Below are positions 49,988-64,000 of a DNA stretch of 64,000 nt, one piece after another. The stretch is from Comamonas odontotermitis. GTDB lineage: Bacteria > Pseudomonadota > Gammaproteobacteria > Burkholderiales > Burkholderiaceae_C. The notes below the pieces were generated by a model. The model was not told where the DNA came from. It searched no databases and saw nothing but the letters and a program-made list of their open reading frames with translations. The position numbers were made by a program, and so were the translations under genes. The DNA lies in contig NZ_CP083451.1 in NCBI RefSeq assembly GCF_020080045.1, forward strand, positions 1,364,001 to 1,428,000, read 5' to 3'. The first letter of the stretch is position 1. The number at the start of each line of letters is the position of its first letter.

Positions 49988-50274
49988 GCAGGCCACGTGC
50001 ATTGGCGTGCAGTTGGAGTTGAAAAAACAATAGCTGGTAGCGCGCGTCAATATTTCGTTTCAATAGGTTTTATATTTGTAATGCAGTGCTGGCAAGCGTT
50101 GACAGCTCTCGTTTTTGCCAGAAAAAGGCGACGGGCTGCGACCGCCTACACTGCCCGCAGCGCTTGCGCAGCGGTGGGCTGGCAAAATCCCGGGGCGGGC
50201 GCGGGCTGACTGCGCGTGGCGCAACCAAGGCGGGCACAACCTGATAATGTGCTGCCTCAGCTTGGCACACAACA

Positions 50275-51810
50275 ATGCAGATGAACCATATCCAACAACG
50301 AATCGACGCGGTCGGCCGCGAGCGGCTGCTGCACATCGGCCGAGGCATTGAAAAAGAAGGCCTGCGCGTGACCGAGGACGGCGCGCTGGCGATGACGCCG
50401 CACCCTGCCGCCCTGGGCTCGGCCTTGACGCACCCCAGCATCACGACCGACTTCAGCGAATCGCAGATCGAAATCATCACCGGCGTGCACCAAAGCGTGC
50501 AGGGGTGCCTCGACGACCTCTCGCAGGTACACCAGTATGTGTACCAGGTGCTGCAGGCCAATGACGAGCGCCTGTGGATTTCGAGCATGCCCTGCTCGCT
50601 GCCGCCGGACGAAACCATCCCGCTGGGCAGGTACGGCTCGTCCAACATCGGCCGCAGCAAGAGCGTGTACCGCATGGGCCTGGGCCACCGCTATGGCCGC
50701 CGCATGCAGACCATCTCGGGCATCCACTACAACTGGTCCATGCCCGGCATCAGCAGCGAAGAGTACTTTGCGCTGATCCGCAACTTCCGCCGCCAGGCCT
50801 TTGTGCTGCTGTACCTGTTTGGCGCATCGCCGGTTCTCTGTCCGTGCTTTGTGGAAGGCCGGCAGCACCAGCTGCAGCCACTGGGCGACGGCAGCGGCGC
50901 GCTCTACCTGCCGCATGCCACATCGCTGCGCATGGGGCGCCTGGGCTACCAGAGCGACGCGCAGGCGTCCATCAGCGTCAGCTACAACCACCTCAAGGGC
51001 TACGCCGATTCGCTGTACGGTGCGCTCACCCAGCCGTATCCGGCCTACGAGAAGATTGGCATCCAGAACCTGGGCGGCGAATACAACCAGCTGGGCACCA
51101 GCCTGTTGCAGATCGAAAACGAGTTCTACGGCACCATCCGCCCCAAGCGCACCGTGCAGCGCGGCGAGCGCCCCCTGCATGCACTGCGGGAGCGTGGCGT
51201 CGAATATGTCGAAGTGCGCTTGATGGACATCAATCCATTCGAGAGCATGGGCATTTCGGCGCAGACCATGCGCCTGCTGGACGTGTTCCTGCTGCACTGC
51301 CTGCTGTCAGACAGCCCGCCCGATTCGCCTGCCGAAATCGCCGAGATGAAGCACAACCAGCACCTGACTGCCGAGCGCGGCCGCGAGCCGGGCCTGCAAC
51401 TGCAGCGCAATGGCCAGCCGGTGCTGCTGACCGGGTGGGCCGCAGAGGTGCTGCAGGCCTGCGCGCCCATTGCGGCGGCGCTGGATGCTGCCCACGGCGT
51501 GCAGGACTATTCGCAGGCGCTTGCTGCAGCGCACCAGTTGCTGGCCAATCCCGAGCAGACGCCATCGGCTCAGGTGCTGGCAGCGGTGACCGGACAGTTC
51601 CAGGGCCAGTTCAAGGCCTTTGGCGCCGCGCAGTCGCAAGCCGCCCGCGCCGCCACGCTGGCCCAACCCTGGAGCGAGGCACTGACCGCCAGCTACCAGG
51701 CCCTGGCGGCAGACTCCGTCGGCGCCCAGAAATCGCTGGAAGCGGCCGACACCGTGCCGTTTGAAGAATGGCGCCAGTGCTATATGTCGCCCGAGCACCT
51801 GGTCGTTTGA
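50275..51810 (+). CDS. gshA: Glutamate-cysteine ligase
   Basis: 511 residues of the E. coli-type GshA family. Marks: IGRGIEKEGLRVTEDGALAM near residue 21, LTHPSITTDFSESQIEIITG, RSKSVYRMGLGHRYGRRMQT and ISGIHYNWSMP. It makes gamma-glutamylcysteine for glutathione. A second in-frame ATG is at 50281. The upstream 287 bp have no clear regulator site. A terminator follows. Confidence 0.95.
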   Translation: MQMNHIQQRIDAVGRERLLHIGRGIEKEGLRVTEDGALAMTPHPAALGSALTHPSITTDFSESQIEIITGVHQSVQGCLDDLSQVHQYVYQVLQANDERLWISSMPCSLPPDETIPLGRYGSSNIGRSKSVYRMGLGHRYGRRMQTISGIHYNWSMPGISSEEYFALIRNFRRQAFVLLYLFGASPVLCPCFVEGRQHQLQPLGDGSGALYLPHATSLRMGRLGYQSDAQASISVSYNHLKGYADSLYGALTQPYPAYEKIGIQNLGGEYNQLGTSLLQIENEFYGTIRPKRTVQRGERPLHALRERGVEYVEVRLMDINPFESMGISAQTMRLLDVFLLHCLLSDSPPDSPAEIAEMKHNQHLTAERGREPGLQLQRNGQPVLLTGWAAEVLQACAPIAAALDAAHGVQDYSQALAAAHQLLANPEQTPSAQVLAAVTGQFQGQFKAFGAAQSQAARAATLAQPWSEALTASYQALAADSVGAQKSLEAADTVPFEEWRQCYMSPEHLVV

Positions 51811-51836
51811 CACCGCTGGTGAAGCCATCCATACCC

Positions 51837-51861
51837 AAGCCCGCCTGCGCGGGCTTTTTTG
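51837..51861 (+). terminator. Rho-independent terminator after gshA
   Basis: An 8-bp stem AAGCCCGC / GCGGGCTT, CTGC loop and T6 tail. Confidence 0.85.
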
Positions 51862-52008
51862 TTGCACCCAGGCTGCAGCGCGGGGCAGAGGATTGCAAGA
51901 AGTTGCAAGCGGCAGCCCGCTTCTCTTTTGATAGCTGACGGCGCGCACCATCGCGGCGCTATCATTTGTCTGACAACAAGAACTCCATCCATCCCGTATC
52001 GTTCAGCC

Positions 52009-54363
52009 ATGGCGCATTTCTCTCCCGACCGCAGCTGGCGCACCTTCAAGCGCAGCCTGCTCAACCACTATGTGCTCAATGGGCTGGAGGTGGCGCTGGG
52101 CCTGTTCCTCGTCACCACGCTGGTGCACCTGGTCTGGGGCGTGCAGCATGCGGCGGCGGCCTCGGTGGGGGTGATTGTCACCATCGTGGTGGACATGCCG
52201 GCGCCCAAGCGTGGCAAATTCTGGCGCATGCTGCCTGCGCCGCTGCTGGGCGCGCCGCTTTTCTGGCTGGTGCAGCTATTGCACCAGCACCCGGTGCTGC
52301 TCGGCTTTCTGGCCGTGTTCTCCACCTTCTTCGGCTTTTTGTGGATGGCCTGGGGCAAGCGGGGCGGGCCGGTGGCCATTGCCGTGGTGCTGGCGATGGT
52401 GCTGGCCATGTCGATCACGCCGCAGCCCGGCCATGTGCTGGAGGTGGCAACGCAATCGACCCTGTTCTTCGTCATCGGTGCTGCCGTCTATCTGGTGTAC
52501 GCCGTGGCGGCCAACGCCATCCTCAACCTGCGCTACCGCGTGCAGTTCATCGCCGATACGGTGCTGTCGCTGGCCGCGCTGATGCTGGAGCAGGCGCGCA
52601 TGGTGCTGCCCGACGCCGCGCGCCATGTCGGGCTGGACGACGAGATGGTGGACGGCGAGGCCTATGGCGACAACCTGGCCGACCGCAATTTCGGCAGCTT
52701 CTCGCGCCAGAGCCCGCAGGCGGCGCACATGGGAAACCTGCTGGCGCGGCACGCCGCCTTTGCCGACCAGCTGCAGGCGGCGCGCGACATCGTGCTGGAG
52801 AGCCCGCGCACCCCACGCCGCCAGCGCCTGGCGGGCATGCTGATGCAGATGCTCGACATCCGTGACCATCTGCTCGCCTGCGAGCTCGATCTGGAGCACC
52901 TGCGCAAGGTGCCCGAGCAGGCACCCATGCTGCTGGCCCAGCAGGCCATGCTGCGCGCGCTGGCGCTGGAGCTGGTGCACCTGGCAGACAGCCTGCTGTG
53001 GGCGCGCAAGCCGCAGCCCATGGCCAACCTGAACACTTTGCTGCTGCCCATGAAGGCGGCCTGCACACCGCGTCAGCGCCTGGAAGAGACGCTGCCCGAC
53101 CAGTACGACCCCGCAGCCCTGCCGCCGCAGGCGCTGTCACAGGAGCTGAGCGAGCGCATCGTGCGCATCCATGGCGAGGTGAACCGCCTGATCCAGCTGG
53201 GGCGCGACGAGGCTGAGCCCGATCTGGCCGTGGTGCGTGCCAGCTGGCAAATGTTCGTCAGCCCCACAGCCTGGTCGTGGTCGCCCTTCAAGGGGCTGAT
53301 GAGCTGGGATGCACCGCCGCTGCGCCACGCCATTCGCGCTGCGCTGGCGATTGCACTGGGCTATGTGGTGGTACAGCTTCTGCCCTGGAAGGCGCATGCC
53401 TACTGGGTGCTGCTGACCATCGTGGTGGTGCTGCGCGGCAGTCTGGCGCAGACGCTGGAGCGGCGCACCATCCGCGTGCTGGGCACCTTGCTGGGCTGCG
53501 TGGCGGCGCTGGCCATTCTGTCGGCCCACCTGCCGCCGCTCGCGCTGATTCTGTGCCTCACGCTCGCGCAGGGCATATCGCACGGCTTTGCCCTGCGCCG
53601 CTACCTGTTCACCGCCATGGGGGCTACCGTGCTGGGTCTTGTGCAGGCGCACATGCTCAATGCCGAAGGCAGCACGAGCTTTCATATGTTCGAGCGCGTG
53701 GTCGACACCATCATCGGCACCGGCATCGCCTGGGCCTTTGCCTATGTGCTGCCTTCGTGGGAGCGCTCGCAAGTGCCTGCGCTGGTGCAGCGGGTGCTCA
53801 AGGCCCAGGCCGCGCATGTGCGCACATCGCTCTCGGTGGAGCAGTTGCAGGCCGTGGACAACGCGCCGGAGCTCGCCTGGCGCCTTGCAAGGCGTGAAGC
53901 CTATGACAGTCTCTCGGCATTGGTGCAGGCCGTGGACCGTTCGCTCAAAGAGCCGCGCGCCGTGCAGCCGCCGCTGCAGGCGCTGGAGCAATTGCAGGCC
54001 CACTGCTACCAGTTGCTGGGGCAGATGACCTCGGTCAAGATCATGCTGATGATGCGCCGGGGGCAGACGCCATCGTCGTTTGCCGTGCAGCAAATGCAGG
54101 AAACGGTGGCTGATGTCGATGCGCACCTGCTGGCGCCCGTGGCCGCAACGCCGCAGCCCGGAGACGCCGCTTTGCCCAAACCGCCCGCGCCAGAGCCCGT
54201 GCCTGATCCGGAAGACCGCGACCTGCTGCCCTGGCTGATGCGGCGCCTTGCGGCATCGCGCATCCTGGCGCGGCAGCTGCAGGCCGATGCAGCGCAGATT
54301 CACCAGGCATTGGCACGGCAGGAGCCTGAAATGCCTGCCGCAGAAGCCGCGCAGGCCCACTGA
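52009..54363 (+). CDS. FUSC-family inner-membrane protein (YccS-like)
   Basis: 784 residues from ATG at 52009. Two sets of membrane helices, about 25-160 and 435-590, with a long cytoplasmic or periplasmic helical domain in between and at the C-terminus, as in YccS/FUSC proteins. The second set has ALAIALGYVVVQLLPWKAHA. FUSC proteins are related to aromatic acid exporters such as AaeB; substrates are mostly unknown. Its stop codon touches the stop of the leftward small gene (TGATCA). Confidence 0.85.
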   Translation: MAHFSPDRSWRTFKRSLLNHYVLNGLEVALGLFLVTTLVHLVWGVQHAAAASVGVIVTIVVDMPAPKRGKFWRMLPAPLLGAPLFWLVQLLHQHPVLLGFLAVFSTFFGFLWMAWGKRGGPVAIAVVLAMVLAMSITPQPGHVLEVATQSTLFFVIGAAVYLVYAVAANAILNLRYRVQFIADTVLSLAALMLEQARMVLPDAARHVGLDDEMVDGEAYGDNLADRNFGSFSRQSPQAAHMGNLLARHAAFADQLQAARDIVLESPRTPRRQRLAGMLMQMLDIRDHLLACELDLEHLRKVPEQAPMLLAQQAMLRALALELVHLADSLLWARKPQPMANLNTLLLPMKAACTPRQRLEETLPDQYDPAALPPQALSQELSERIVRIHGEVNRLIQLGRDEAEPDLAVVRASWQMFVSPTAWSWSPFKGLMSWDAPPLRHAIRAALAIALGYVVVQLLPWKAHAYWVLLTIVVVLRGSLAQTLERRTIRVLGTLLGCVAALAILSAHLPPLALILCLTLAQGISHGFALRRYLFTAMGATVLGLVQAHMLNAEGSTSFHMFERVVDTIIGTGIAWAFAYVLPSWERSQVPALVQRVLKAQAAHVRTSLSVEQLQAVDNAPELAWRLARREAYDSLSALVQAVDRSLKEPRAVQPPLQALEQLQAHCYQLLGQMTSVKIMLMMRRGQTPSSFAVQQMQETVADVDAHLLAPVAATPQPGDAALPKPPAPEPVPDPEDRDLLPWLMRRLAASRILARQLQADAAQIHQALARQEPEMPAAEAAQAH

Positions 54364-54660
54364 TCAACGGCAGGATTGAATGCCCGACGGGGTGCCGGGC
54401 GAGGTGGGGAGCGCCTCGGTGTCGGCCAGGGCCTGCAGCGCGCACTCCTGCCAGTACATGGCGGCGGCAAAAAAACCTTCCCACACGCAGCCATTGCAGC
54501 CACGGCCGCAGCAGGTGGTGGGGGCATCGGGCGGCGCGCGCAGGCTGATGCGGCGTGCCGTGGCTGCTGCCAGCAGCGTGTCAAAACAGTCTCGTGCGGC
54601 TCGCAGACTGGTGAGCGACTGCAGGGCGGGCAGGGCAGTGGCGGCCGAAGGCACCGTCAT
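54364..54660 (-). CDS. Small oxidoreductase-like protein (PF09791 motif)
   Basis: 98 residues from ATG at 54660. The core CCGRGCNGCVWEGFFAAAMY (about 49-68) is the cysteine-rich signature of the oxidoreductase-like N-terminal family, probably binding metal. Function unknown. The start overlaps the stop of the upstream small membrane gene by 4 bp, so they form a two-gene unit. Confidence 0.75.
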   Translation of the reverse strand: MTVPSAATALPALQSLTSLRAARDCFDTLLAAATARRISLRAPPDAPTTCCGRGCNGCVWEGFFAAAMYWQECALQALADTEALPTSPGTPSGIQSCR

Positions 54661-54908
54661 TCCGAGGGGCGTGGCGGCACGGCCTTGCGGCGCAGGCCAA
54701 AGCGCACCACAAAGGCCGCCCCCAGTACCAGGGAAAACCAACCCACCGCAGCGGCCTTGGCGAAAACTCCCTGCACAATAGCGCCTTGGCTGACAGAGGG
54801 CGACACAACAATCACCAGCCCGATCAAGACCAGAATAATGCCTTTGATGAGCAGATCCTGATCGGATTTTCGCTGCGCATCCCACTGGCGTTGAGATAAA
54901 GAAGACAT
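54657..54908 (-). CDS. Small two-helix membrane protein
   Basis: 83 residues from ATG at 54908. Two hydrophobic helices (IKGIILVLIGLVIVVSPSV and AAAVGWFSLVLGAAFVVRFG) and a basic C-terminus. No recognised family. Coupled to the PF09791 gene by a 4-bp overlap and divergent from rbgA. Confidence 0.68.
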   Translation of the reverse strand: MSSLSQRQWDAQRKSDQDLLIKGIILVLIGLVIVVSPSVSQGAIVQGVFAKAAAVGWFSLVLGAAFVVRFGLRRKAVPPRPSE

Positions 54909-54978
54909 GGCTGCATTATCCGGCACCTGCGTCGTCCGCAGGCGCACCGGGCCCTGGCAGCCTGCAGAAAGCAAGATT

Positions 54979-55923
54979 ATGAGTATCCAATGGTTCCCGG
55001 GGCATATGCACCTGACGCGCAAGCTGATTGCCGAGCGCATCAAAGACATCGATGTGGTGATCGAGGTGCTCGACGCGCGCATGCCGGGATCGAGCGCCAA
55101 CCCCGCCCTTACCGAGCTGACGGGCCACAAGCCCACGCTCAAGATCATCAACAAGCAGGACATGGCCGACGCCGCGCGCACGGCGCTGTGGGTGGACTGG
55201 TACGACGCGCAGCACGAAACCAAGGCCCTGCCGCTCGATGCCAGCGAGCCCGCGCCCGCCAAGCGCCTGGTGGAAGCCTGCCGCAAACTGGCCCCCGGGC
55301 GCGGCGGCATGGCCAAGCCGCTGCGGGTGCTGATCTGCGGCGTGCCCAACGTCGGCAAATCCACCCTGATCAACAGCATGAGCGGCAAAAGCCAGGCCAA
55401 GGCAGGCGACGAGGCCGGCGTGACCAAGGACGAGCAGCGCATCGTGCTGGACGACGATTTCTACCTGTGGGACACCCCCGGCATGCTGTGGCCCAAGATC
55501 ATCGTGCCGCAGACCGGCTACAACCTGGCCGCCTGCGGCTCGGTGGGTCGCAATGCGTATGACGACGAGCTGGTGGCTCTGGAACTGTTGCTGTACCTGC
55601 AAAAGCACTATGCCCGCCGCCTGGACGAACGCTACAAGCTCGGCCTGGACGACGACGAGATTGCGGCGCTGCACGACGACGAACTGCTGACCCTGATCGG
55701 CAAGAAGCGCGGCGCGGTGATGAGCGGTGGCCGGGTGAACCTGCAAAAGGCGGCAGAGCTGCTGATCACCGATTTCCGCACGCAGATGCTCGGTCGCATC
55801 ACGCTGGAGACGCCGCCAGAATTCGAGCAGTGGCGTGCTGCAGGAGAAGCCACAGAGGCCGAGCACCAGGCCAAGAAGGCCGAACACGCCAAGCACCGCA
55901 AGGCTGGCCGCAAACGCTATTGA
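54979..55923 (+). CDS. rbgA: Ribosome biogenesis GTPase YlqF/RbgA family
   Basis: 314 residues from ATG at 54979. The circularly permuted GTPase order is visible: G4 NKQD at 58-61 comes before G1 GVPNVGKSTL (around 119), then G3 DTPG. The N-terminal IQWFPGHM is the family signature. RbgA matures the large ribosomal subunit. The C-terminus is basic (KKAEHAKHRKAGRKRY). The 170 bp after the stop are featureless up to the promoter at 56095. Confidence 0.92.
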   Translation: MSIQWFPGHMHLTRKLIAERIKDIDVVIEVLDARMPGSSANPALTELTGHKPTLKIINKQDMADAARTALWVDWYDAQHETKALPLDASEPAPAKRLVEACRKLAPGRGGMAKPLRVLICGVPNVGKSTLINSMSGKSQAKAGDEAGVTKDEQRIVLDDDFYLWDTPGMLWPKIIVPQTGYNLAACGSVGRNAYDDELVALELLLYLQKHYARRLDERYKLGLDDDEIAALHDDELLTLIGKKRGAVMSGGRVNLQKAAELLITDFRTQMLGRITLETPPEFEQWRAAGEATEAEHQAKKAEHAKHRKAGRKRY

Positions 55924-56094
55924 GACAACAGCAGTTGGCGCTTGCTGGCTGGCTGCCGCGGGCTCCAAAGGCGGGGCATGCAAAAATGCTGCCCATATCG
56001 ACGCCTTGCAGCGTGCTTTTCGCATCATTGGCGACTTGCCGGCAGATAGCATCCAAAGCCAGCACAAAGTCGTGCAAAGCCCGCTGTTGAGAGG
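55924..56094. other. Intergenic stretch before the 56095 promoter
   Basis: No coding frame, terminator or clear repeat was seen here; rbgA has no obvious terminator in this interval. Confidence 0.6.
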
Positions 56095-56123
56095 TTGCAT
56101 TTTTGCAACGAATTTTGTATAAT
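56095..56123 (+). promoter_or_regulatory. Sigma70 promoter of the leader/AAA-M41 operon
   Basis: -35 TTGCAT (56095-56100), 17-bp spacer and -10 TATAAT (56118-56123), near-consensus. Transcription would start near 56130, giving a leader of about 310 nt before the first full gene at 56438. Confidence 0.85.
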
Positions 56124-56222
56124 GCTTGATTCCCGCCAGTCTTGGCACTACATTCATCGCTCATCTTCCTATCGCTGCAGTAACGAATGACCTTCTGCAG
56201 CGCACCGCAAGGAGTTTTTGCT

Positions 56223-56255
56223 ATGTCCTGTTTCATGTTCAACCATTTCGACTGA
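56223..56255 (+). CDS. 10-codon leader ORF (MSCFMFNHFD)
   Basis: ATG at 56223 has AAGGAG with 8-nt spacing (56209-56214), better than most sites in the window. The peptide has three Phe, one Cys and one His among ten residues, with no run of one amino acid as in classical attenuators. It lies in the leader between two stem-loops. Its translation might set the folding of the following hairpins. Confidence 0.5.
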   Translation: MSCFMFNHFD

Positions 56256-56342
56256 ACACGGTTCTTGCCCCGGCTGAACTGTGGTCACACCGTTCAGCCT
56301 CGGCCCAGATCGCTGCCCGCTCCCCTTGCAGGCAGGATCGAC

Positions 56343-56377
56343 AAAAGCCCTGGCTTCCCCGCCGGGGCTTTTTGTTT
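56343..56377 (+). terminator. Leader terminator upstream of the small basic gene
   Basis: AAAAGCCC / GGGCTTTT (56343-56350 with 56365-56372) with an inner GGC/GCC pair and a TTTTTGTTT tail. It lies between the promoter and the downstream genes, so transcription must pass it or restart after it. Confidence 0.85.
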
Positions 56378-56437
56378 GGGCCCGCGCCTTCCTGTTACCT
56401 GTGCAGGTGCCTGGCGCGGCCCGTGAGGAACCGCACA

Positions 56438-56683
56438 ATGAGTGCAAAAACCGTTTCCCGCGCCTATGGAGAAGGCCGGGTCAAGGCCTTGCGCCGCATG
56501 AAGCAGCCGATGGCGCTGCTGATCGTGGCCGATGCCGCTCCTTTCAACCCTGTTGCCAAAGCCATGGCCCAGCGGCGTCTGTCCGGCGCCGCTGGCAAGC
56601 ACATCCGCAGCCAGGGCGCGCAGCGCCGGGCCGACCGCATGGCTTTGCAGCAGGTCATACGCAGGGATGGTCGTGATGACTGA
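56438..56683 (+). CDS. Small basic protein upstream of the AAA-M41 gene
   Basis: 81 residues, strongly basic, with helices rich in Arg and Ala (RVKALRRMKQPMALLIVADA; GAQRRADRMALQQVIRRDGR). No family was recognised; it could bind nucleic acid or act as adaptor or substrate of the protease encoded next. AGGA lies 9 nt before the ATG at 56438. A GC-rich hairpin (GGGCC..GCGCC / GGCGCG-GCCC, 56378-56421) covers part of its leader. Its stop overlaps the start of the ATPase gene by 8 bp, indicating coupling. Confidence 0.62.
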   Translation: MSAKTVSRAYGEGRVKALRRMKQPMALLIVADAAPFNPVAKAMAQRRLSGAAGKHIRSQGAQRRADRMALQQVIRRDGRDD

Positions 56684-58763
56684 TTCCGTTTTCAAACCAT
56701 CCGACGGCTTTGTCCTCTTGGGTACGCGAATGGTTGAACAATGGAAAGCCTCTGCCAATGATGAGAACAAGAACATGAACGATCTGAGAACCCCGAGTGA
56801 GCTGCTCCTGCGTGAGCAGATGCATGAACGTCAACAAAACCTGCAGGCCATTGCGGCGCAGCTGAAAACCGAATTGATCGGTATTGATGACGTGATCGAC
56901 CGTGTCATTGGCGCCGTGCGCGCCTGGTACGTGATGCCGCAGCTCATTACCCGCCCCGTGATCGTGTGCCTGTGGGGCCTCACAGGCACAGGCAAGACCC
57001 AGCTGACCAGGCGCCTGGCGCAGCTTCTGGGTTTTTACGATCGCTTTGTCGAAGTGCAGATGGATGGCTTCAGTCAGAACAGCGGCAACTACGGCGCATC
57101 AACGATTTCTGGCACGCTCGAGAGTGCCGGTCTGGTCGAAGGCGTGCCGGGTATCCTGGTGCTCGACGAGTTCCAGCGCTACCGCACGGTGAGCAGCCGG
57201 GGTGAGGACAGCAAGGTCGAGCGTTACCAGGACGTGTGGGCGCTGCTGTCGGACGGCAAGCTGCCACCTGCGCTGTCGGAGCTGCACAACATGGAGCGCA
57301 AGCTGGCCGATGCGCACTATGAGGCGGAGCGCGAAGACGAGGATGACGAAGAGGAGCGACGCAAGAAGCAGAAGCTGCGCTACAAGATTGACGCCTGGGA
57401 CGCGCAGGCGCTCAAGCGCAGCCTCAAGCTGGCCGAGCCGCTGATCGAGATCATGCAGTGGAGCAACGACTACATCCACCAACTGCTGGTCAAGTTCCGC
57501 GAATCGCAGCAATCCTGGGAGACCGACTACAGCAAGCTCCTGGTGTTTGTCTGCGGCAACCTCGACGAGATGTACACCGAGACGGCCAGCCGCGTGGAGG
57601 ACTGTGACACCGATGCCGACATCTTCCACCGGCTCACGAGCCGGTTGTCGTTGATCGATGTCAAGCGCGCGCTGGCCGAGCGCTTCAAACCCGAGCAGAT
57701 TGCGCGGCTGGGCAACCACCATGTGATCTACCCATCGTTCAGCCGCGCTACCTATGAGCAGCTGATTGCCGCTACGGTGCGCAACTACGTGCAGGGCATT
57801 GCCGACAACTGTGGCCTGCATTTCGTGATCGGCAGCGATGTGCTGGCGCAGATCTACCAGAACGCGGTGTTCCCCACCCAGGGCACGCGTCCGCTGTTCT
57901 CGTCGGTGCACACGATCCTGTCGAGCTCGCTGGTCGATGCGGCGCTCTGGGCGCTGGAGCAGGGGGCGCAGGCAGGCCAGTCGCTGCAGGTGCACATGGC
58001 GCCTGATACGGCGGAGCTGGTGGTGCAGATGCAGCTGCCGTTGCATGAAGCCGTTGGCGGGCAGGTGCACAGCCAGCGCTTTGCCGTGCCGCTGGATCTG
58101 AACCGGATCAAGCAGCGCACCAGCGCAGATTTCCGCGCGCTGCTGGCGGTGCATGAGGCGGGACATGGCCTGGTGTATGCGCTGCTGTTTGGCCGCGCGC
58201 CGCAGGAGCTCAAGATCAACATCGCCACGTTCGAAGGCGGCTACAACAGCTTTACCGAGCTGCAGGCCACCTCGCGCCGCAACATGCTCGACATGGTGTG
58301 CGTGGGGCTGGCTGGCCGCGCTGCCGAGCGCCATGTGTTTGGCGAGGCCGCCTGCACCACCGGTGCCGAGCAGGACATCCGCCAGGCAACGGCCGAGGCT
58401 GCGCGCTACCTGCGCCACCTGGGCTTTGGCGACCGTCTTTCGCGCACCGATGTGGCGGACGAATCCGGTGAGAACATGAACACCGAGGTGGAGCCGACCA
58501 ACACTGCCATCGAAGCACTGCTGCAGGCGCAGATGCTGCGTGCCCAGCAACTGCTGGTGCAGCACGACGCCTTGCTGGTGGCGATGACGGAAGTGCTGAT
58601 GCGTGAGGGCCTGATCACCCCGGCCGCGATGGTGGCGCTGTGTGCTGCCCAGGGCCAGCCCGTGGCGCTCACAGTGGCCAAGGGAGGCGACGCGCCAGAG
58701 CCCAAGCTGGTGCTGGAGCCCTATGCCAGCATGCTGGCAGCGCATACCCAAGGGGCTGCATAG
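56676..58763 (+). CDS. AAA+ ATPase fused to an M41 (FtsH-type) metallopeptidase, soluble
   Basis: 695 residues from ATG at 56676; ATG at 56775 is another possible start. AAA+ part: Walker A GLTGTGKT 101-108, Walker B ILVLDEFQRY 160-169, an acidic/basic coiled insert at 205-235, sensor-1-like LLVFVCGNLDE 288-298 and arginine candidates in HRLTSRLSL. C-terminal M41 part: HEAGH at 493-497 and the third ligand region TTGAEQDI (D567). FtsH normally has membrane helices at its N-terminus; none are seen here. It could be a cytosolic unfoldase-protease. Substrates are unknown. Confidence 0.87.
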   Translation: MTDSVFKPSDGFVLLGTRMVEQWKASANDENKNMNDLRTPSELLLREQMHERQQNLQAIAAQLKTELIGIDDVIDRVIGAVRAWYVMPQLITRPVIVCLWGLTGTGKTQLTRRLAQLLGFYDRFVEVQMDGFSQNSGNYGASTISGTLESAGLVEGVPGILVLDEFQRYRTVSSRGEDSKVERYQDVWALLSDGKLPPALSELHNMERKLADAHYEAEREDEDDEEERRKKQKLRYKIDAWDAQALKRSLKLAEPLIEIMQWSNDYIHQLLVKFRESQQSWETDYSKLLVFVCGNLDEMYTETASRVEDCDTDADIFHRLTSRLSLIDVKRALAERFKPEQIARLGNHHVIYPSFSRATYEQLIAATVRNYVQGIADNCGLHFVIGSDVLAQIYQNAVFPTQGTRPLFSSVHTILSSSLVDAALWALEQGAQAGQSLQVHMAPDTAELVVQMQLPLHEAVGGQVHSQRFAVPLDLNRIKQRTSADFRALLAVHEAGHGLVYALLFGRAPQELKINIATFEGGYNSFTELQATSRRNMLDMVCVGLAGRAAERHVFGEAACTTGAEQDIRQATAEAARYLRHLGFGDRLSRTDVADESGENMNTEVEPTNTAIEALLQAQMLRAQQLLVQHDALLVAMTEVLMREGLITPAAMVALCAAQGQPVALTVAKGGDAPEPKLVLEPYASMLAAHTQGAA

Positions 58764-58824
58764 ACCGCGCGGCGGCGCTGCCGTATTTTTGAGCGTACAG
58801 CGTTTTTAAGTTGAGTTGCTTTTG

Positions 58825-58855
58825 AGCCACCCATGGACTGCGGGTGGCTTTTTTT
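58825..58855 (+). terminator. Terminator after the AAA-M41 gene
   Basis: AGCCACCC / GGGTGGCT stem (58825-58832 with 58842-58849) and a T7 tail. A near-identical copy lies at 60940-60968. Confidence 0.88.
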
Positions 58856-59060
58856 ATGCAGCGTTCATACTGCTGCTCGGTTAGCTGTAACGGGGCGTTT
58901 GGTGCCTAAGATTCTCTCAGGTCATGCAAGCCTGAAGGCTCCCTGCAACATATATGCTTCTATATTAATAAATGCGATTTCATTTTGGTGAAAATGTAAT
59001 ATATATATTAATCTGGGGGGATGATGCAAAATATTCCAATCTATATAGAAAGGAATGCAT

Positions 59061-60845
59061 ATGCAAAAAAATAGGGCGGCTCGACTGCTAAGAGCTGCTG
59101 CATGCTTGGGGCTCATGGCATGGAACTTATCCAGCCACGCCCAGGGCGTAAACAGCACGGCTTTTGTTCAAACGGTTGCAGGCGGGGGCACTGCTGCAGC
59201 CACCGGAAAAGCCATTTCTCTGAATATTGGCGCCCACGGGGAAGTAGTATTTGATGCCGCTGGAAATTTCTATATACCTGACTATAACGGAAGTCGCGTT
59301 ATCAAGGTAGATTTAGCAGGAAATTTCACAGTAGTCGCTACCGGCGCCACCTTCACCGACTTGGCCATTGATACCGCGAACAATATTCTTTATGCAGCGG
59401 GTTATGGCTCGGGTGCAATTTTTCGCGTAGACCTCAACACCAATACGCAGACTGCCTTGATCAGCCCTGGAGGCACACCAGTGGGTGTGGCACTGTCGCC
59501 GGACGGAACAAAGCTCTACTACAGCATCCAAACTCAATGCAGTTGGTACCGCTTGGATTTGCCAAGCACCACGCCCACTCTGATTGCTGGAGATGGAAAC
59601 TGTACTGCCCCGTTTGTGACTGATGGTAGCAGCGCAACTTTAGGTAGCTTTCATGCTAATAACGAAGGCGTTGTTGCAGACGGCAATGGCAACGTATACA
59701 TTGCAGACGCAGGTGACAACCGCATTTGGCGCATCAATGCGGCAGGCACTGCAAATATCATTGCAGGCAATGGCATTGCAGGCACTGCAGGAGACGGCGG
59801 GCCCGCCACGGCGGCCAATCTCAACTTTCCAGACTTCATGGTTCTGGATGCCAATGGTGATCTGATCTTTTCAGACCGAAATAACTCGGCGATTCGCAAA
59901 GTGGCTTTGAGCACCGGCATCCTCACCACACTGACGGGCGGCTTGGCAACCACCACATCGTCTGCCAATGGAGAGCCTTTCGCCACCACGAATTTTAATG
60001 TCACCATAGGGCTGGGTATTGATGCTGCAGGCTACTACTATGTCAATACAAGTGGGTTGATCCGACGTTTTGCGCCATTCCCCATCACCATGGGCAAGAC
60101 GGTGACCAATGCACCCCCAGAAGGCGTTTCGGGCAGCTTTGGCCTGGGTATTTCTTGTAACGATGGCAGCAGCAACCCCGGCACGCTCACACTGGGCAAT
60201 CAGGCAACCAATAGCCAGTTGTTGCAATACATGCCGTCACTCGGGGCAACTTGCACCGTGGCAGAAAGCACGCCATTGCCTGCCGCTCCCGCCTACCATG
60301 AATGGACGGGTGCACCGAGTTACTCCGTTGATGGCGGTGCGCCAACCGCGCAACTTAACAACCTGCTGATTGACAGCACGGGTCATTCGGTGATGGTGAC
60401 CAACAATCTTTTGCGCCAGACCTCCACTTTGAACGTGACAAAGCTGATCGCACCTAGCACGGTGACAGCGGCAGGAGATTTTGGTTTTGCCGTAAATTGC
60501 CAGACCCCTGTCGGTAGCTATACAGGCACGGTGACCGTGGCCACAGGCAATACGGCATCCAGCGCCATCAGCGTACCTGCAGGTAGTACAAATTGCCAGA
60601 TCAGCGAGACGAGCAAAGCCACGCCGCCCCAGGGCTACCAATGGATTGATCCGGTGTATCAACAACCGTCTGCTGGCCCGCTGCAGGATGGTGTTGCCGT
60701 GAGTGTCAGCATTACCAATACGCTGCGCGCCAACTCTAGCGCCAGTGCTGCACCTGTGCCTGTGCTTTCTTTGCCTGGGTTGTTGGCATTGGGGGTTTTG
60801 ATGGCTGGCGTTGCAGGTTGGGGCCGCCGTCGCAATCTGCAGTAA
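59061..60845 (+). CDS. Exported NHL-repeat protein with repeated surface domains and C-terminal sorting-type tail
   Basis: 594 residues from ATG at 59061, with AAAGGA 6 nt upstream. Signal peptide 1-28 (ends SSHAQG). Residues 35-350 are a beta-propeller of NHL-like repeats (DAAGNFYIPDYNGSRVIKVD; DGNGNVYIADAGDNRIWRIN). Two similar domains of about 100 residues follow, each with paired cysteines (LGISCNDG; FAVNCQTP), resembling DUF5979-type repeats. The C-terminus VPVLSLPGLLALGVLMAGVA plus GWGRRR is a tripartite IPTL/PEP-CTERM-like tail. Base composition is lower in GC than the neighbours, and the gene sits between duplicated terminators. Confidence 0.8.
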   Translation: MQKNRAARLLRAAACLGLMAWNLSSHAQGVNSTAFVQTVAGGGTAAATGKAISLNIGAHGEVVFDAAGNFYIPDYNGSRVIKVDLAGNFTVVATGATFTDLAIDTANNILYAAGYGSGAIFRVDLNTNTQTALISPGGTPVGVALSPDGTKLYYSIQTQCSWYRLDLPSTTPTLIAGDGNCTAPFVTDGSSATLGSFHANNEGVVADGNGNVYIADAGDNRIWRINAAGTANIIAGNGIAGTAGDGGPATAANLNFPDFMVLDANGDLIFSDRNNSAIRKVALSTGILTTLTGGLATTTSSANGEPFATTNFNVTIGLGIDAAGYYYVNTSGLIRRFAPFPITMGKTVTNAPPEGVSGSFGLGISCNDGSSNPGTLTLGNQATNSQLLQYMPSLGATCTVAESTPLPAAPAYHEWTGAPSYSVDGGAPTAQLNNLLIDSTGHSVMVTNNLLRQTSTLNVTKLIAPSTVTAAGDFGFAVNCQTPVGSYTGTVTVATGNTASSAISVPAGSTNCQISETSKATPPQGYQWIDPVYQQPSAGPLQDGVAVSVSITNTLRANSSASAAPVPVLSLPGLLALGVLMAGVAGWGRRRNLQ

Positions 60846-60939
60846 ACTGGTGACGGAAGAGAGATTGGTGCGATTTCTCTTCCGTGCATTACTGGTTCAT
60901 GCACTGTAAGCGCTCATCTCTGGCGCCAGTCTGCTTTCA

Positions 60940-60968
60940 AGCCACCCGAGAACTGCGGGTGGCTTTTT
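60940..60968. terminator. Terminator after the NHL-repeat gene
   Basis: AGCCACCCG / CGGGTGGCT stem (60940-60948 with 60956-60964), T5 tail. Similar to the one at 58825-58855 in stem, loop end (ACTG) and the bases that follow. It may also serve the leftward TraB gene. Confidence 0.86.
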
Positions 60969-61031
60969 CATGCGGCTTTCAAGCGGCCCTTTGCAGCCCT
61001 CACGCATACATTCATGCCGCTGCAAGCGGCT

Positions 61032-62213
61032 TCATTGCGCGCTATCGGCTCCTTTGCCGGTCAGCTGGCGCACGGTAAAGCCTTCTTTCTGCAGCAGTTG
61101 CAGCAGGTTGTTGTCTCCCACCATGTGCAGCAGGCCGACGGCGATGAACAGCTTCGGGTGCTGGGCGACCAAGGGGGAAATGCGTTCTGCCATGCGACGG
61201 TTGCGGTCGTCGAGCATGGCGGTTTTCATACCCAGGTCGTCCATGCAATTGCAGGTACGCATCAGCGTCTCCAGGGCCGCCAGATCGCCGCTTTGCCAGT
61301 GGCGCACCAGGTCGCCGGTGATCTCGCGGCTCTTGCCGCTGCGGATGTCGTCCAGCACCTTGGTGATGTCGTCGGGGGTGGCCAGGTTGGCCAGCGAATC
61401 CTTGCCGCCCAGGCCCATGGCGTCGAGCTGCTCCTGCGCAGTTTCGAGTGCCAGGATCGGCCGGCCCCCGGCCTGCGCCATGGCTGCCAGGTTCAGATCG
61501 ATGCCAAAGGCCATGCTGTAGCCATCGCGCGACACATCGGCCACGGCGAGTGCCAGTATCTTGGCAATGGTGGCCATGCCTTGCCAGCTGCTGCGCTCCA
61601 CGCACAGCGTCTGGGCCATGGCATCCATGCGCGCACGCAACTGCGGGTTGTTGCGCATCACCAGTTGCTGCGCGTCGCTGTCGCGGGCCATGGCCTGCAT
61701 CAAGGTCTGCAGGGTTTGCGGGTCCAGCGGATTGAGTTCCAGCGCAATGGCGGGGGCGGCGCGCAGGGCCCGCGCGGTACGCGGGCCGGGGTAGATCCAC
61801 GGCAGCTTGCCCAGGTGAATGGTGCCTAGCAGGTACGCGGTGTGCTCGCCTTTGCGCAGTTCCCACAGAACGCCTTGGTCGGGATGCTGGCGCTGTGCCT
61901 CGGCCTGGTAGTCGGCCGGGCTTGGCAATGTGGGCGCGGGGCACTGCAGAGGCGCTGCGGCGGTGCTGGTACTGGCAGGTGATTGCGGAGCGCGGGCCTG
62001 CGCGCCAGGCGTGGCCAGCAGGGCGCCGCCTGCCAGCGCCAAAGCCGCAAGGCCCGTCTTGACACAGGATGTCTGAAAATAATTTACTATATTTTTGATA
62101 GCTGATGGCGCTTGACAGTATTGCGCCAGAGGCAGTTTTCTCCGCAAATCTCTCTCCCGGTAGTGGCAGAGCGCATTGTTGCCGCAAACGCAAAAAAAGC
62201 GAATGCCGGGCAT
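61032..62213 (-). CDS. TraB/GumN family protein, exported
   Basis: Up to 393 residues. The hydrophobic signal core GLAALALAGGALLATPGAQA comes only at about residue 54, so translation probably starts later than the ATG at 62213, perhaps at a TTG near residue 23; no internal ATG is available. TraB/GumN marks: AYLLGTIHLGKLPW with the GxxH motif and the C-terminal VGLLHMVGDNNLLQLLQKEG. Members are predicted metal-dependent hydrolases related to TIKI proteases. It is leftward, convergent with the NHL gene. Confidence 0.82.
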   Translation of the reverse strand: MPGIRFFCVCGNNALCHYRERDLRRKLPLAQYCQAPSAIKNIVNYFQTSCVKTGLAALALAGGALLATPGAQARAPQSPASTSTAAAPLQCPAPTLPSPADYQAEAQRQHPDQGVLWELRKGEHTAYLLGTIHLGKLPWIYPGPRTARALRAAPAIALELNPLDPQTLQTLMQAMARDSDAQQLVMRNNPQLRARMDAMAQTLCVERSSWQGMATIAKILALAVADVSRDGYSMAFGIDLNLAAMAQAGGRPILALETAQEQLDAMGLGGKDSLANLATPDDITKVLDDIRSGKSREITGDLVRHWQSGDLAALETLMRTCNCMDDLGMKTAMLDDRNRRMAERISPLVAQHPKLFIAVGLLHMVGDNNLLQLLQKEGFTVRQLTGKGADSAQ

Positions 62214-62243
62214 TCGCTGTGTTGTGCCAAGGCAGCGGTGCGT

Positions 62244-63236
62244 TTACTGCGCCTGGATCTGGGCTTCCCGCACCACCTTGCCATTGGCTTCCCATTCCTT
62301 GCGGATCAGGGCCTGGAACTGGTCTGCGCCCATGGACAGCGGGATGTTGTCGAGCGAACGCAGCTTGTCCTGCACCTCGGTGTGGGCCAACTGGGCGTTG
62401 ATGGTCTGGTTCAGGCGCTGCACCACGGCAGCAGGCGTGCCTGCCGGTGCGTAAAAGCCGAACAGCGAGGTGAGGTTGGCGCTTTGGTAGCCCAGCTCGC
62501 CGAGCGTGGGCACCTGCGCAAATGCCGCGGCGCGCTCGGGGCCGGTCACCGCCAGCACGCGCAGCTTGCCTTCGGCGATCAGCGCATTGATGGGCGCGTA
62601 GGGGTTGGCCACCAGCAGATCGAACTGGCCGCCTGCGGCATCGGTGATCAGCTGGCTGCCGCCCTTGTAGGGCACGTGCACGAGGTTGGCGCCGGTCTGG
62701 CGGGTGAACTGCTCGATCATGATGTGGCCCAGCGTGCCGTAGCCGGAGCTGGCGATGGTCACGCCCTTGGCGCTGGCCTTGGCAGCAGCGAGCACGTCGG
62801 CAACGCTGCTGCCCTTGAAGGCCTTGGTGGCCAGCAGGTACACCGGTGCATACATGGTGGAGGCCACGGCGCTGATCTGCTTCATCGGGTCGTAGGCCAC
62901 CTTCATCACGTGCGGCAGCAGGGTGAGGGTGCTGATGCCGGAAAAGGCCAGCGTGTGGCCATCGGGGGCAGAGCGAGCGAGCGCGTCCATGCCCATGCTG
63001 CCGCCCGCGCCGGGCTTGTTGTCCACGATGATGGAGGTTTGCAGCAGCGGTGCCAGCAGGTCGGCAAACTGGCGCGCCACCACATCATTCACGCCACCGG
63101 CCGGGAAGGGCACGATGATGCGGATGGGCTGGCCGCCGGGCCAGGGCTTGTCTGCAAAGCTGCTGCCGCAGGCAAGGCCCGCAGCCAGGGCGGCGCCGGT
63201 TTTCAGCCATTGGCGACGGGAGAATGGGGAAGTCAT
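62244..63236 (-). CDS. Bug-family solute-binding protein with Tat-type signal
   Basis: 330 residues from ATG at 63236. The N-terminus has SRRQWLKTG followed by a moderate hydrophobic stretch, a twin-arginine signal of the type common in this family. Body motifs: IRIIVPFPAGGVNDVVARQF, VDNKPGAGGSMGMDALARSA and SSGYGTLGHIMIEQF. It should bind a small carboxylate in the periplasm. It lies directly downstream of the M20 hydrolase gene, in the same direction, 31 bp away, and may bind a substrate or product of that enzyme. Confidence 0.88.
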   Translation of the reverse strand: MTSPFSRRQWLKTGAALAAGLACGSSFADKPWPGGQPIRIIVPFPAGGVNDVVARQFADLLAPLLQTSIIVDNKPGAGGSMGMDALARSAPDGHTLAFSGISTLTLLPHVMKVAYDPMKQISAVASTMYAPVYLLATKAFKGSSVADVLAAAKASAKGVTIASSGYGTLGHIMIEQFTRQTGANLVHVPYKGGSQLITDAAGGQFDLLVANPYAPINALIAEGKLRVLAVTGPERAAAFAQVPTLGELGYQSANLTSLFGFYAPAGTPAAVVQRLNQTINAQLAHTEVQDKLRSLDNIPLSMGADQFQALIRKEWEANGKVVREAQIQAQ

Positions 63237-63267
63237 GGGCATCCAGGGCATATGAAGGGCTCAGGGC

Positions 63268-64000
63268 TCAGCGCACGGCCTGGGTGTCAAACCAGCGGCG
63301 CGCCAGGCGGTCCCAGAAACGGGCGCCCAGATCGAGGTTGTTGTCGTTGAAGTCGTAGCCGGGGTTGTGCAGGCCTACCCCGGGCTGGCCATCGGCGCCA
63401 TTGCCGATCCAGCCGTAGGCGCCGGGAACGGCTTCGAGCATGAAGCCGAAGTCTTCGGCGGTCATCGCGGGCAGCACATCGGTGTGTGCATGGGCGTCTC
63501 CCACCATCTCGCGCATCACCTCGCCCATGAACACCGCTTCCTTTCTGTGGTTGGTGGTGTTGGGGTAGCCGGGTTTGATGATGACTTCGGCGCTGGCAAA
63601 GTGCGCCTCGGCAATGTGGCTGCTGATGCGGTGCAGGCCGTCGATCAGGAACTGTTGCGAGGCATTGGTGAGGTTGCGGCAGGTGCCGTAGATGCGCGCT
63701 TCGTCGGGGATGATGTTCTCCACTGTGCCGGACTCGATCTTGCCGATGGTGAGCACTGCGCTGTCCAGCGGATCGGTGCCGCGCGAGATGAGGGTCTGCA
63801 ACTGGCCGACGATGGCGCAGGCCACCGGAATCGGATCGATGGTGGTGTGGGGCAGGGCGGCATGGCCGCCACGGCCACGCACGATGATCTCGAACCGCAG
63901 CGCCGCTGCCATGATGGGGCCGACGCGCACGCCCATCTCGCCCTGTGGCAGCGCGGGCCAGTTGTGCAGCGCAAACACGGCCTGGCAGGGAAATTGGGTA
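63268..64000 (-). CDS. M20-family amidohydrolase (partial)
   Basis: The C-terminal 244 residues of a hippurate/N-acyl-amino-acid hydrolase-type enzyme; the 5' part is beyond the right edge. The reading frame is open from 64000. Marks: VFALHNWPALPQGEMGVRVG, IIVRGRGGHAALPHTTIDPI (dimerisation-domain region), LPAMTAEDFGFMLEAVPGAY and the C-terminal GVGLHNPGYDFNDNNLDLGA with a metal-ligand histidine. It hydrolyses N-acyl amino acids to the free amino acid and carboxylate; the Bug protein downstream supports a role in scavenging these. Confidence 0.92.
   Translation of the reverse strand, partial: TQFPCQAVFALHNWPALPQGEMGVRVGPIMAAALRFEIIVRGRGGHAALPHTTIDPIPVACAIVGQLQTLISRGTDPLDSAVLTIGKIESGTVENIIPDEARIYGTCRNLTNASQQFLIDGLHRISSHIAEAHFASAEVIIKPGYPNTTNHRKEAVFMGEVMREMVGDAHAHTDVLPAMTAEDFGFMLEAVPGAYGWIGNGADGQPGVGLHNPGYDFNDNNLDLGARFWDRLARRWFDTQAVR

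Follow-up and report, generated by a model that had tools for sequence, protein, structure and literature searches.

A predicted soluble protease joining a Clp/Hsp100-like AAA+ motor to an M41 zinc peptidase, encoded with a small basic protein behind a putative structured RNA leader

A review lists five AAA+ proteases in E. coli, namely ClpXP, ClpAP, HslUV, Lon and FtsH, and presents the FtsH family as membrane-anchored (PMC9020784). FtsH is like the protein reported here in that an ATPase and an M41 zinc peptidase lie on one chain in the same order, and both the HExxH motif and the third zinc ligand within TGAxxD are conserved in the present fusion. The D2 modules of ClpB, ClpA and ClpC share with its ATPase part an N-terminal box, the Walker motifs, the FRPE-x-x-x-R context of the arginine finger and a GARP-like sensor 2. 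Lon is a soluble AAA+ unfoldase that carries its peptidase on the same chain. How does the locus compare with these systems? The window, which is the whole 64,000-nucleotide stretch of Comamonas odontotermitis DNA that was analysed, holds the fusion gene with the following features:

56676..58763, plus strand: AAA+-M41 fusion protein of 695 amino acids, start ATG 56676
56730 and 56775, among others, plus strand: alternative in-frame ATGs of the fusion open reading frame
56808..58010, plus strand: AAA+ module assigned to the Clp/Hsp100 type by similarity, residues about 45-445
Residues of the AAA+ motor motifs: Walker A 101-108; Walker B to E165; sensor 1 N295; sensor 2 R405
Residue R344: putative arginine finger
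Residues about 200-284: insert in the AAA+ module
58125..58625, plus strand: M41 zinc peptidase domain, residues about 484-650, with H493-E494-H497 and third ligand D567

The preliminary description of this DNA, made from the letters alone, had claimed that the AAA+ module and the M41 site are both complete, and its coordinates, frame and motif positions proved right. The family alignment comprises 82 members, with identities of 47-87% to the window protein. Pfam matches the AAA family at residues 97-184 (30.2 bits, cut-off 21.2) and M41 at residues 485-650 (64.2 bits, cut-off 29.9); Walker A reads GLTGTGKT, Walker B ends in D164-E165 and HEAGH occupies 493-497. The motor residues G106-K107-T108, D164/E165, N295, R344 and R405 and the zinc-site residues H493, E494, H497 and D567 do not vary across the 82 aligned sequences, which include the window's. 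The dN/dS ratio of the fusion gene against Comamonas loci L003 and L004 is 0.14-0.15, with a third locus, L005, left out because its value (2.6) came from a misplaced four-codon frame, and such ratios indicate that the gene is under purifying selection. Based on the invariance of the key motor and zinc residues together with these ratios, the fusion protein is likely active. The charged stretch at about 205-235, which had been pointed out as foreign to FtsH, was found again; it belongs to a family-wide insert (columns 200-280 hold 76-101 residues in the 82 sequences) that is about 80 residues long, lies between Walker B and sensor 1, counts among the differences from FtsH and is absent from the D2 modules of ClpB and ClpA.

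We hypothesize that the fusion and its leader represent a soluble, presumably hexameric ATP-dependent zinc protease with a Clp-type motor, encoded in an operon under RNA-level control, and we put the probability of this reading at roughly three in four. The hexamer would act in the cytosol, where a Clp/Hsp100-type AAA+ ring would unfold proteins and thread them into the M41 ring of the same chain. The protein would thereby work in the manner of FtsH, with motor and peptidase in one polypeptide; its motor would come from a different lineage, and it would lack a membrane anchor. The structured leader would limit translation, and perhaps transcription, of the operon until a signal arrives, and the small, very basic protein encoded upstream would most likely assist the fusion or be handled by it, its candidate roles being adaptor, regulator or substrate. 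The sequence shows how the domains are arranged, that the key catalytic residues do not vary, that AAA signatures of FtsH are missing, that selection is purifying, that the neighborhood is conserved and that the leader covaries; the hexamer, the proteolysis, the place in the cytosol, the role of the partner and the signal are inferred. Most likely the product is a zinc protease that is soluble, depends on ATP, has a new architecture and is controlled at the RNA level. A fuller version, in which an Hsp100-type motor and an M41 peptidase were joined independently of FtsH and the soluble zinc protease acts together with a dedicated small basic adaptor and is turned on by way of a structured leader RNA of a kind not described before, is offered tentatively, as it falls somewhat short of an even chance.

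The fusion of a Clp/Hsp100-like motor with M41 may be a further kind of ATP-driven protease. It combines a known motor class with a known peptidase class in a way that is without description in the literature searched, where no title or abstract opening describes such a fusion protein. If the proposal is true, motor and peptidase lineages would be exchangeable within one chain, a soluble natural comparison for the FtsH mechanism would be at hand and a recurring FtsH annotation would be corrected; moreover, the small protein and the RNA leader would make the physiological signal directly testable. Of the 8000 candidates that each of two protein searches scored, 1226 and 1183 matched at E 1e-5. 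Among the relatives listed (the best 120 of each set) the labels are general or unrelated, for instance 'AAA family ATPase', 'peptidase M41', 'cell division protease FtsH' and 'hypothetical protein', so that none of these relatives appears to have been characterised under another name. The genera among the matches listed are Acidovorax, Comamonas, Delftia, Diaphorobacter, Lampropedia, Polaromonas, Ramlibacter, Variovorax, Xenophilus and Xylophilus, with one record from Cupriavidus. Two further matches, L006 and L007, were rejected as relatives on being recognized by eye as ordinary FtsH.

The main oddity of the fusion as an unfoldase is its pore loop, whose aromatic residue shows no clear conservation, with Y, W, H, S, G, R and others at positions 138/139. 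As this residue of unfoldases is poorly conserved in the family, the grip on substrate may differ or be weak. A different hypothesis builds on this point, according to which the protein is a regulatory remodelling ATPase, not a processive protease of general range, and its M41 part cuts a single dedicated partner, such as the small basic protein. We consider it unlikely, and the relation between the fusion and the small gene bears on it directly:

56438..56683, plus strand: small basic protein of 81 amino acids, calculated pI 11.8, conserved operon partner

The preliminary description had reported that the two proteins are encoded by overlapping frames, and they do overlap, by 8 nucleotides, with ATG 56676 of the fusion overlapping the stop codon of the small gene. 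Of 38 loci, five lacked one of the genes; in 18 of the other 33, counting the window, an in-frame fusion ATG overlaps the small-gene stop. Because of this recurrence the suspicion that the overlap is an artefact was dropped; it had come from the Comamonas relatives L003-L005, where the first fusion ATG lies 30-31 nucleotides past the small-gene stop. The small gene lies within about 1 kb upstream of the fusion on the same strand in 34 of the 42 fusion-bearing genomes; three more (G122, G738 and G807) hold a weak copy elsewhere, and it was not found in five (G696, G761, G791, G864 and G904). In locus L079 of the last genome, the leader stands before the fusion with no small gene found between. 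This pairing with one small protein, the overlapping starts, the pore loop and a patchy distribution all speak for a dedicated partner.

The small gene is also present in ten genomes without a fusion match, which weighs against that hypothesis. Among the 399 genomes surveyed from the window's family it occurs in 47, and the copies without a fusion include three in one genus that score 132-138 bits (G787, G850 and G908), as well as G147 at 107, G752 at 96, G821 at 53 and four more at 29-36 bits. The small genes of G787 and G908 keep the leader RNA without a fusion match, and G850 retains a fusion fragment beside its small gene. Since each gene occurs without the other, neither strictly needs the other; the two are linked but separable, which also argues against an obligatory toxin-antidote pair. 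The small protein has 274 homologues at E 0.01 (120 of them listed), matches nothing in Pfam, NCBIfam, PADLOC, PHROG or PDB, and its gene shows dN/dS of 0.15-0.16 against L003-L005. In the genus g123, two loci (L067 and L076) that lie apart from the fusion gene combine a divergent small gene with this leader RNA, and one genome (G141) holds two divergent fusion copies (L029 and L040), with a small gene found beside just one.

The fusion itself was found in 42 of the same 399 genomes (E 1e-40 or better), in 40 of the 350 of good quality and in 25 of 141 genera, so that its distribution is patchy. Two of the 42 genomes carry split copies (L043 in G146 and L082 in G822) and one carries a remnant (L081 in G791), from which it follows that the fusion gene decays in some lineages; three further matches, in G811, on contig C64 of G141 and in G035, each contain one stop inside the matched stretch. 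In a phylum sample of 299 genomes the sole match at 1e-20 was the window's own genome, and in an order sample of 250 genomes the own genome was matched together with an FtsH-type protein of genome G531. The latter (L064, positions 28-2118) was rejected as a member since its AAA part is FtsH-type by eye. It shows, also by eye, a receiver-like N-terminal region followed by FtsH-type AAA and M41, and comes from another family of the order.

Is the soluble zinc protease proposed here nevertheless an FtsH that has diverged strongly and lost its membrane helices, with a degenerate classical AAA domain as its AAA+ part? We regard this as improbable. The shared order of motor and M41 domain speaks for it. 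By hydropathy scan no membrane helix is predicted in the fusion, N-terminal or overall: the highest 19-residue Kyte-Doolittle mean, 1.52, falls at residue 640, and residues 1-95 reach a maximum of 1.02, as compared with 2.11 near the N terminus of the genome's own FtsH. Eleven of the 82 sequences reach at least 1.6, the top value being 1.88, in the C-terminal part of P0071 (residue 615). Could a wrong start have hidden a helix? The upstream in-frame ATG at 56532 lies within the small gene, in another frame, and the first 90 residues of the extension reach just 0.96. The earlier statement that no transmembrane segment precedes or interrupts the domains agrees with these values, and alternative starts add no hydrophobic segment. 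As the start position varies among loci, residues 1 to about 33 are uncertain.

Other Pseudomonadota have proteins (L114-L118) that combine M41 with a classical AAA domain of the FtsH type and lack a strongly hydrophobic N terminus, and they lend the divergent-FtsH reading some plausibility. Their first 200 residues reach at most 1.48, and for this reason the absence of membrane helices alone is not unique to the fusion. They resemble it in the M41 domain and in lacking a strongly hydrophobic segment in the N-terminal 200 residues, and differ from it in the FtsH-type AAA domain. L114-L117 are grouped apart from the fusion family in the AAA tree, and all five are apart from it in the M41 tree, where they form their own group beside FtsH.

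Evidence against a divergent FtsH comes from the AAA+ half, for which a profile was built from fusion residues 45-445. Against the genome's own proteins, whose AAA+ members were named by NCBIfam, this profile scored ClpB at 34.4 bits, Lon at 15.9, ClpA at 13.9, ClpX at 10.3 and HslU at 9.6, and the 31 FtsH proteins compared, one of this genome and 30 of the phylum sample, stayed below 4 bits; an FtsH-type M41 protein of another genome (L120) reached 16.0 bits. The best NCBIfam models on the AAA side are ClpA and ClpB, the latter matching residues 329-442, and the FtsH_fam equivalog gives 56.9 bits against a cut-off of 600, over residues 479-647 alone. A PDB profile search with the 82-member alignment found ClpE, ClpB and ClpC to match the AAA part best, and the best stretch for FtsH, AFG3L2 and YME1 to lie in the M41 part. 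When the window's AAA part alone was searched against PDB, ClpE was best (E 3.1e-6), followed by Hsp104 and ClpC (E about 0.001). Aligned with ClpB D2, the fusion presents Walker A and B, sensor 1, the arginine finger and a GxR sensor 2 in the Clp arrangement, with RFKPEQIARLG opposite FRPEFLNRID and GTRPL opposite GARPL. The motif RF[KR]PEQ[IV]ARLG is present in 81 of the 82 fusion sequences, and the Clp-type arginine-finger and sensor-2 residues are invariant. In contrast, the SRH motif of classical AAA proteins (RxGR[FL][DE]) occurs in 0 of 82 fusion sequences and in 31 of 31 FtsH. These comparisons indicate that the AAA+ half is not FtsH-like and that its best matches are Clp/Hsp100 D2 modules. 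The profile, PDB and SRH results support the original suggestion of a soluble unfoldase-protease type separate from FtsH, and the comparison with ClpX, HslU, Lon and FtsH that had been proposed along with it did not place the AAA+ part inside the FtsH clade.

Phylogenetic support for the Clp placement is moderate. In the AAA tree, where long branches were flagged, the fusion family groups with ClpB/ClpA D2 at 91/76, and an AU test of joining the family to classical AAA does not reject that arrangement (p 0.077), a point for a divergent FtsH. An exclusive clade of the family with ClpB/ClpA D2, ClpX and HslU is absent from the AAA tree but is not rejected either (p 0.379). When the profile was compared with 18 single sequences by hhalign, the P-loop dominated and the top score, over 86 columns, fell to the FtsH-type M41 protein L120, again a point for that reading; ClpB D2 alone gave a long alignment, of 261 columns, as compared with 105 or fewer for the others.

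The protein with the proposed Clp-type motor also differs from the Clp proteins. Unlike ClpB, ClpA and ClpC, the fusion has a single AAA+ module, no canonical GYVG pore loop, no IGF-like motif and a fused peptidase. A ClpP-docking motif resembling IGF or IGL was found between residues 296 and 340 in none of the 82 sequences, and IGF is present in the genome's own ClpX and ClpA; Pfam ClpB_D2-small (PF10431) has no match in the fusion up to E 1, and the protein is not among the genome's three matches. Lon gives a weak AAA match of 15.9 bits, the Lon profile matches residues 48-131 only (E 0.05), and an M41 zinc peptidase replaces that of Lon. From FtsH the fusion differs by having no membrane helices by hydropathy, no classical AAA with its SRH, a Clp-type AAA+ module in its place, the insert, and an M41 part that stands apart from the 31-member FtsH group.

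The M41 half is a real but remote relative of the FtsH peptidase. An M41 profile of the fusion family scores the 31 FtsH at 49-70 bits over the whole sequence, and in the M41 tree these form one group (99/98) apart from the fusion family, with long branches flagged and the root set by choice. The window's genome (4.83 Mb, 3 contigs) has one other M41 match, at C1:3040454-3041023 (247 bits), which is a true FtsH (NCBIfam 896.7 bits); in the same genome-wide search the fusion protein scores 66 bits.

What surrounds the gene elsewhere? Across 20 loci the small gene is the only broadly common neighbor (18 of 20), and seven loci lie beside hrpA and six beside argA, five of them beside both, these names having been given by NCBIfam to representatives in L070 and L061. 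The small gene of G908 lies between hrpA and argA. In the window, the fusion copy is downstream of a YlqF GTPase gene (54907-55923, 307 bits). An rRNA or tRNA neighborhood, suspected from conserved short open reading frames, was discarded after no Rfam match was obtained in six loci, and among 17 loci and the window tRNAs are found in L032 only. That the two genes form a mobile or selfish cassette, acting as toxin-antitoxin or in phage defence, in place of a housekeeping or stress protease is a long shot: patchy presence, differing genomic places (YlqF in the window, hrpA/argA elsewhere), split or remnant copies in three genomes and a PADLOC DolB match to the AAA part (26.5 bits) can be cited for it, but phage records hold no match to the fusion, plasmid records hold two that are both FtsH, the PADLOC match and those to PHROG (phrog_4871 at 43.3 bits, phrog_30773 at 39.8 bits) look like general AAA or M41 similarity, and the repeated location at hrpA/argA, where the small gene alone can survive, is in keeping with an ancient chromosomal locus that was lost many times.

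The RNA-level control included in the protease hypothesis refers to a putative structured leader that is absent from the observations of the preliminary description:

56223..56255, plus strand: short upstream open reading frame of 10 codons, its stop abutting the leader
56256..56437, plus strand: predicted structured RNA leader, model match 56251-56390
About 56259-56264, plus strand: 5' arm of P1
56272-56279 with 56292-56299, plus strand: P2
About 56343-56373, plus strand: P3, terminator-like hairpin
About 56428-56433, plus strand: proposed 3' arm of P1, in the ribosome-binding region of the small gene, on the basis of duplex computation

In relatives, the order upstream of the small gene is a short open reading frame, GCCCCGGCTG, a hairpin, a terminator-like hairpin and the start codon. 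Short frames that look similar stand in corresponding positions in most of the 43 upstream regions. In the basal stem P1, the stretch past the short frame pairs with the ribosome-binding region. Of the 43 upstream regions, four (L038, L072, L074 and L153) were set aside and a search for the motif found none in two of the remaining 39 (L034 and L149), and after identical leaders were merged 32 distinct ones were available for P1. Their cognate duplexes average -11.6 kcal/mol and mixed ones -9.3 kcal/mol, with 0 of 5000 permutations as low, in a test that leaves relatedness in place. The cognate duplexes of P2 and P3 (31 leaders) likewise gave 0 of 5000 permutations as low each under the same kind of test, the difference for P3 being small (-17.6 vs -16.8).

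A covariance model built from eight leaders matches 37 of 57 loci at E below 1e-4, the eight included. In 32 matches, whose sources were preselected among the 37 and whose alignment was fitted to the structure, 91.9% of cells pair, and 81.6% in P1. Fifteen of 26 modelled pairs change on both sides, with 0 of 500 shuffles as high, and a sliding pairing partner gives at most 5 such pairs, which shows that the leader covaries. In the window, the match ends at 56390, short of the proposed 3' arm of P1, because of an insert in this leader. A search of 200 genomes at E up to 0.001 returned 27 matches, 16 of them at the small gene; the other 11 have E-values of 2.9e-5 to 9.9e-4, and the six of these that were inspected look like ordinary terminators before unrelated genes. 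Rfam has no match at gathering score for the leader in positions 50000-64000 of the window or in six loci, and in E-value mode the matches are weak and far below gathering scores.

When applied to the plain alignment, RNAalifold proposes only the long-range pair of GCCCCGGC with GCCGGGGC, which is a possible alternative fold. Since both conserved elements could pair, a switch of the leader between two folds is possible. The U tract appears by eye to be missing from the leaders of L041, L082 and L150, and its lack in some relatives is easier to reconcile with control of translation than with attenuation alone. The window contains an extra GC-rich stretch with an inverted repeat (56376-56425) that lies after the terminator-like hairpin and before the small gene; it is found in part in L003-L005 and L145, is present in L159 and is absent from most other aligned leaders.
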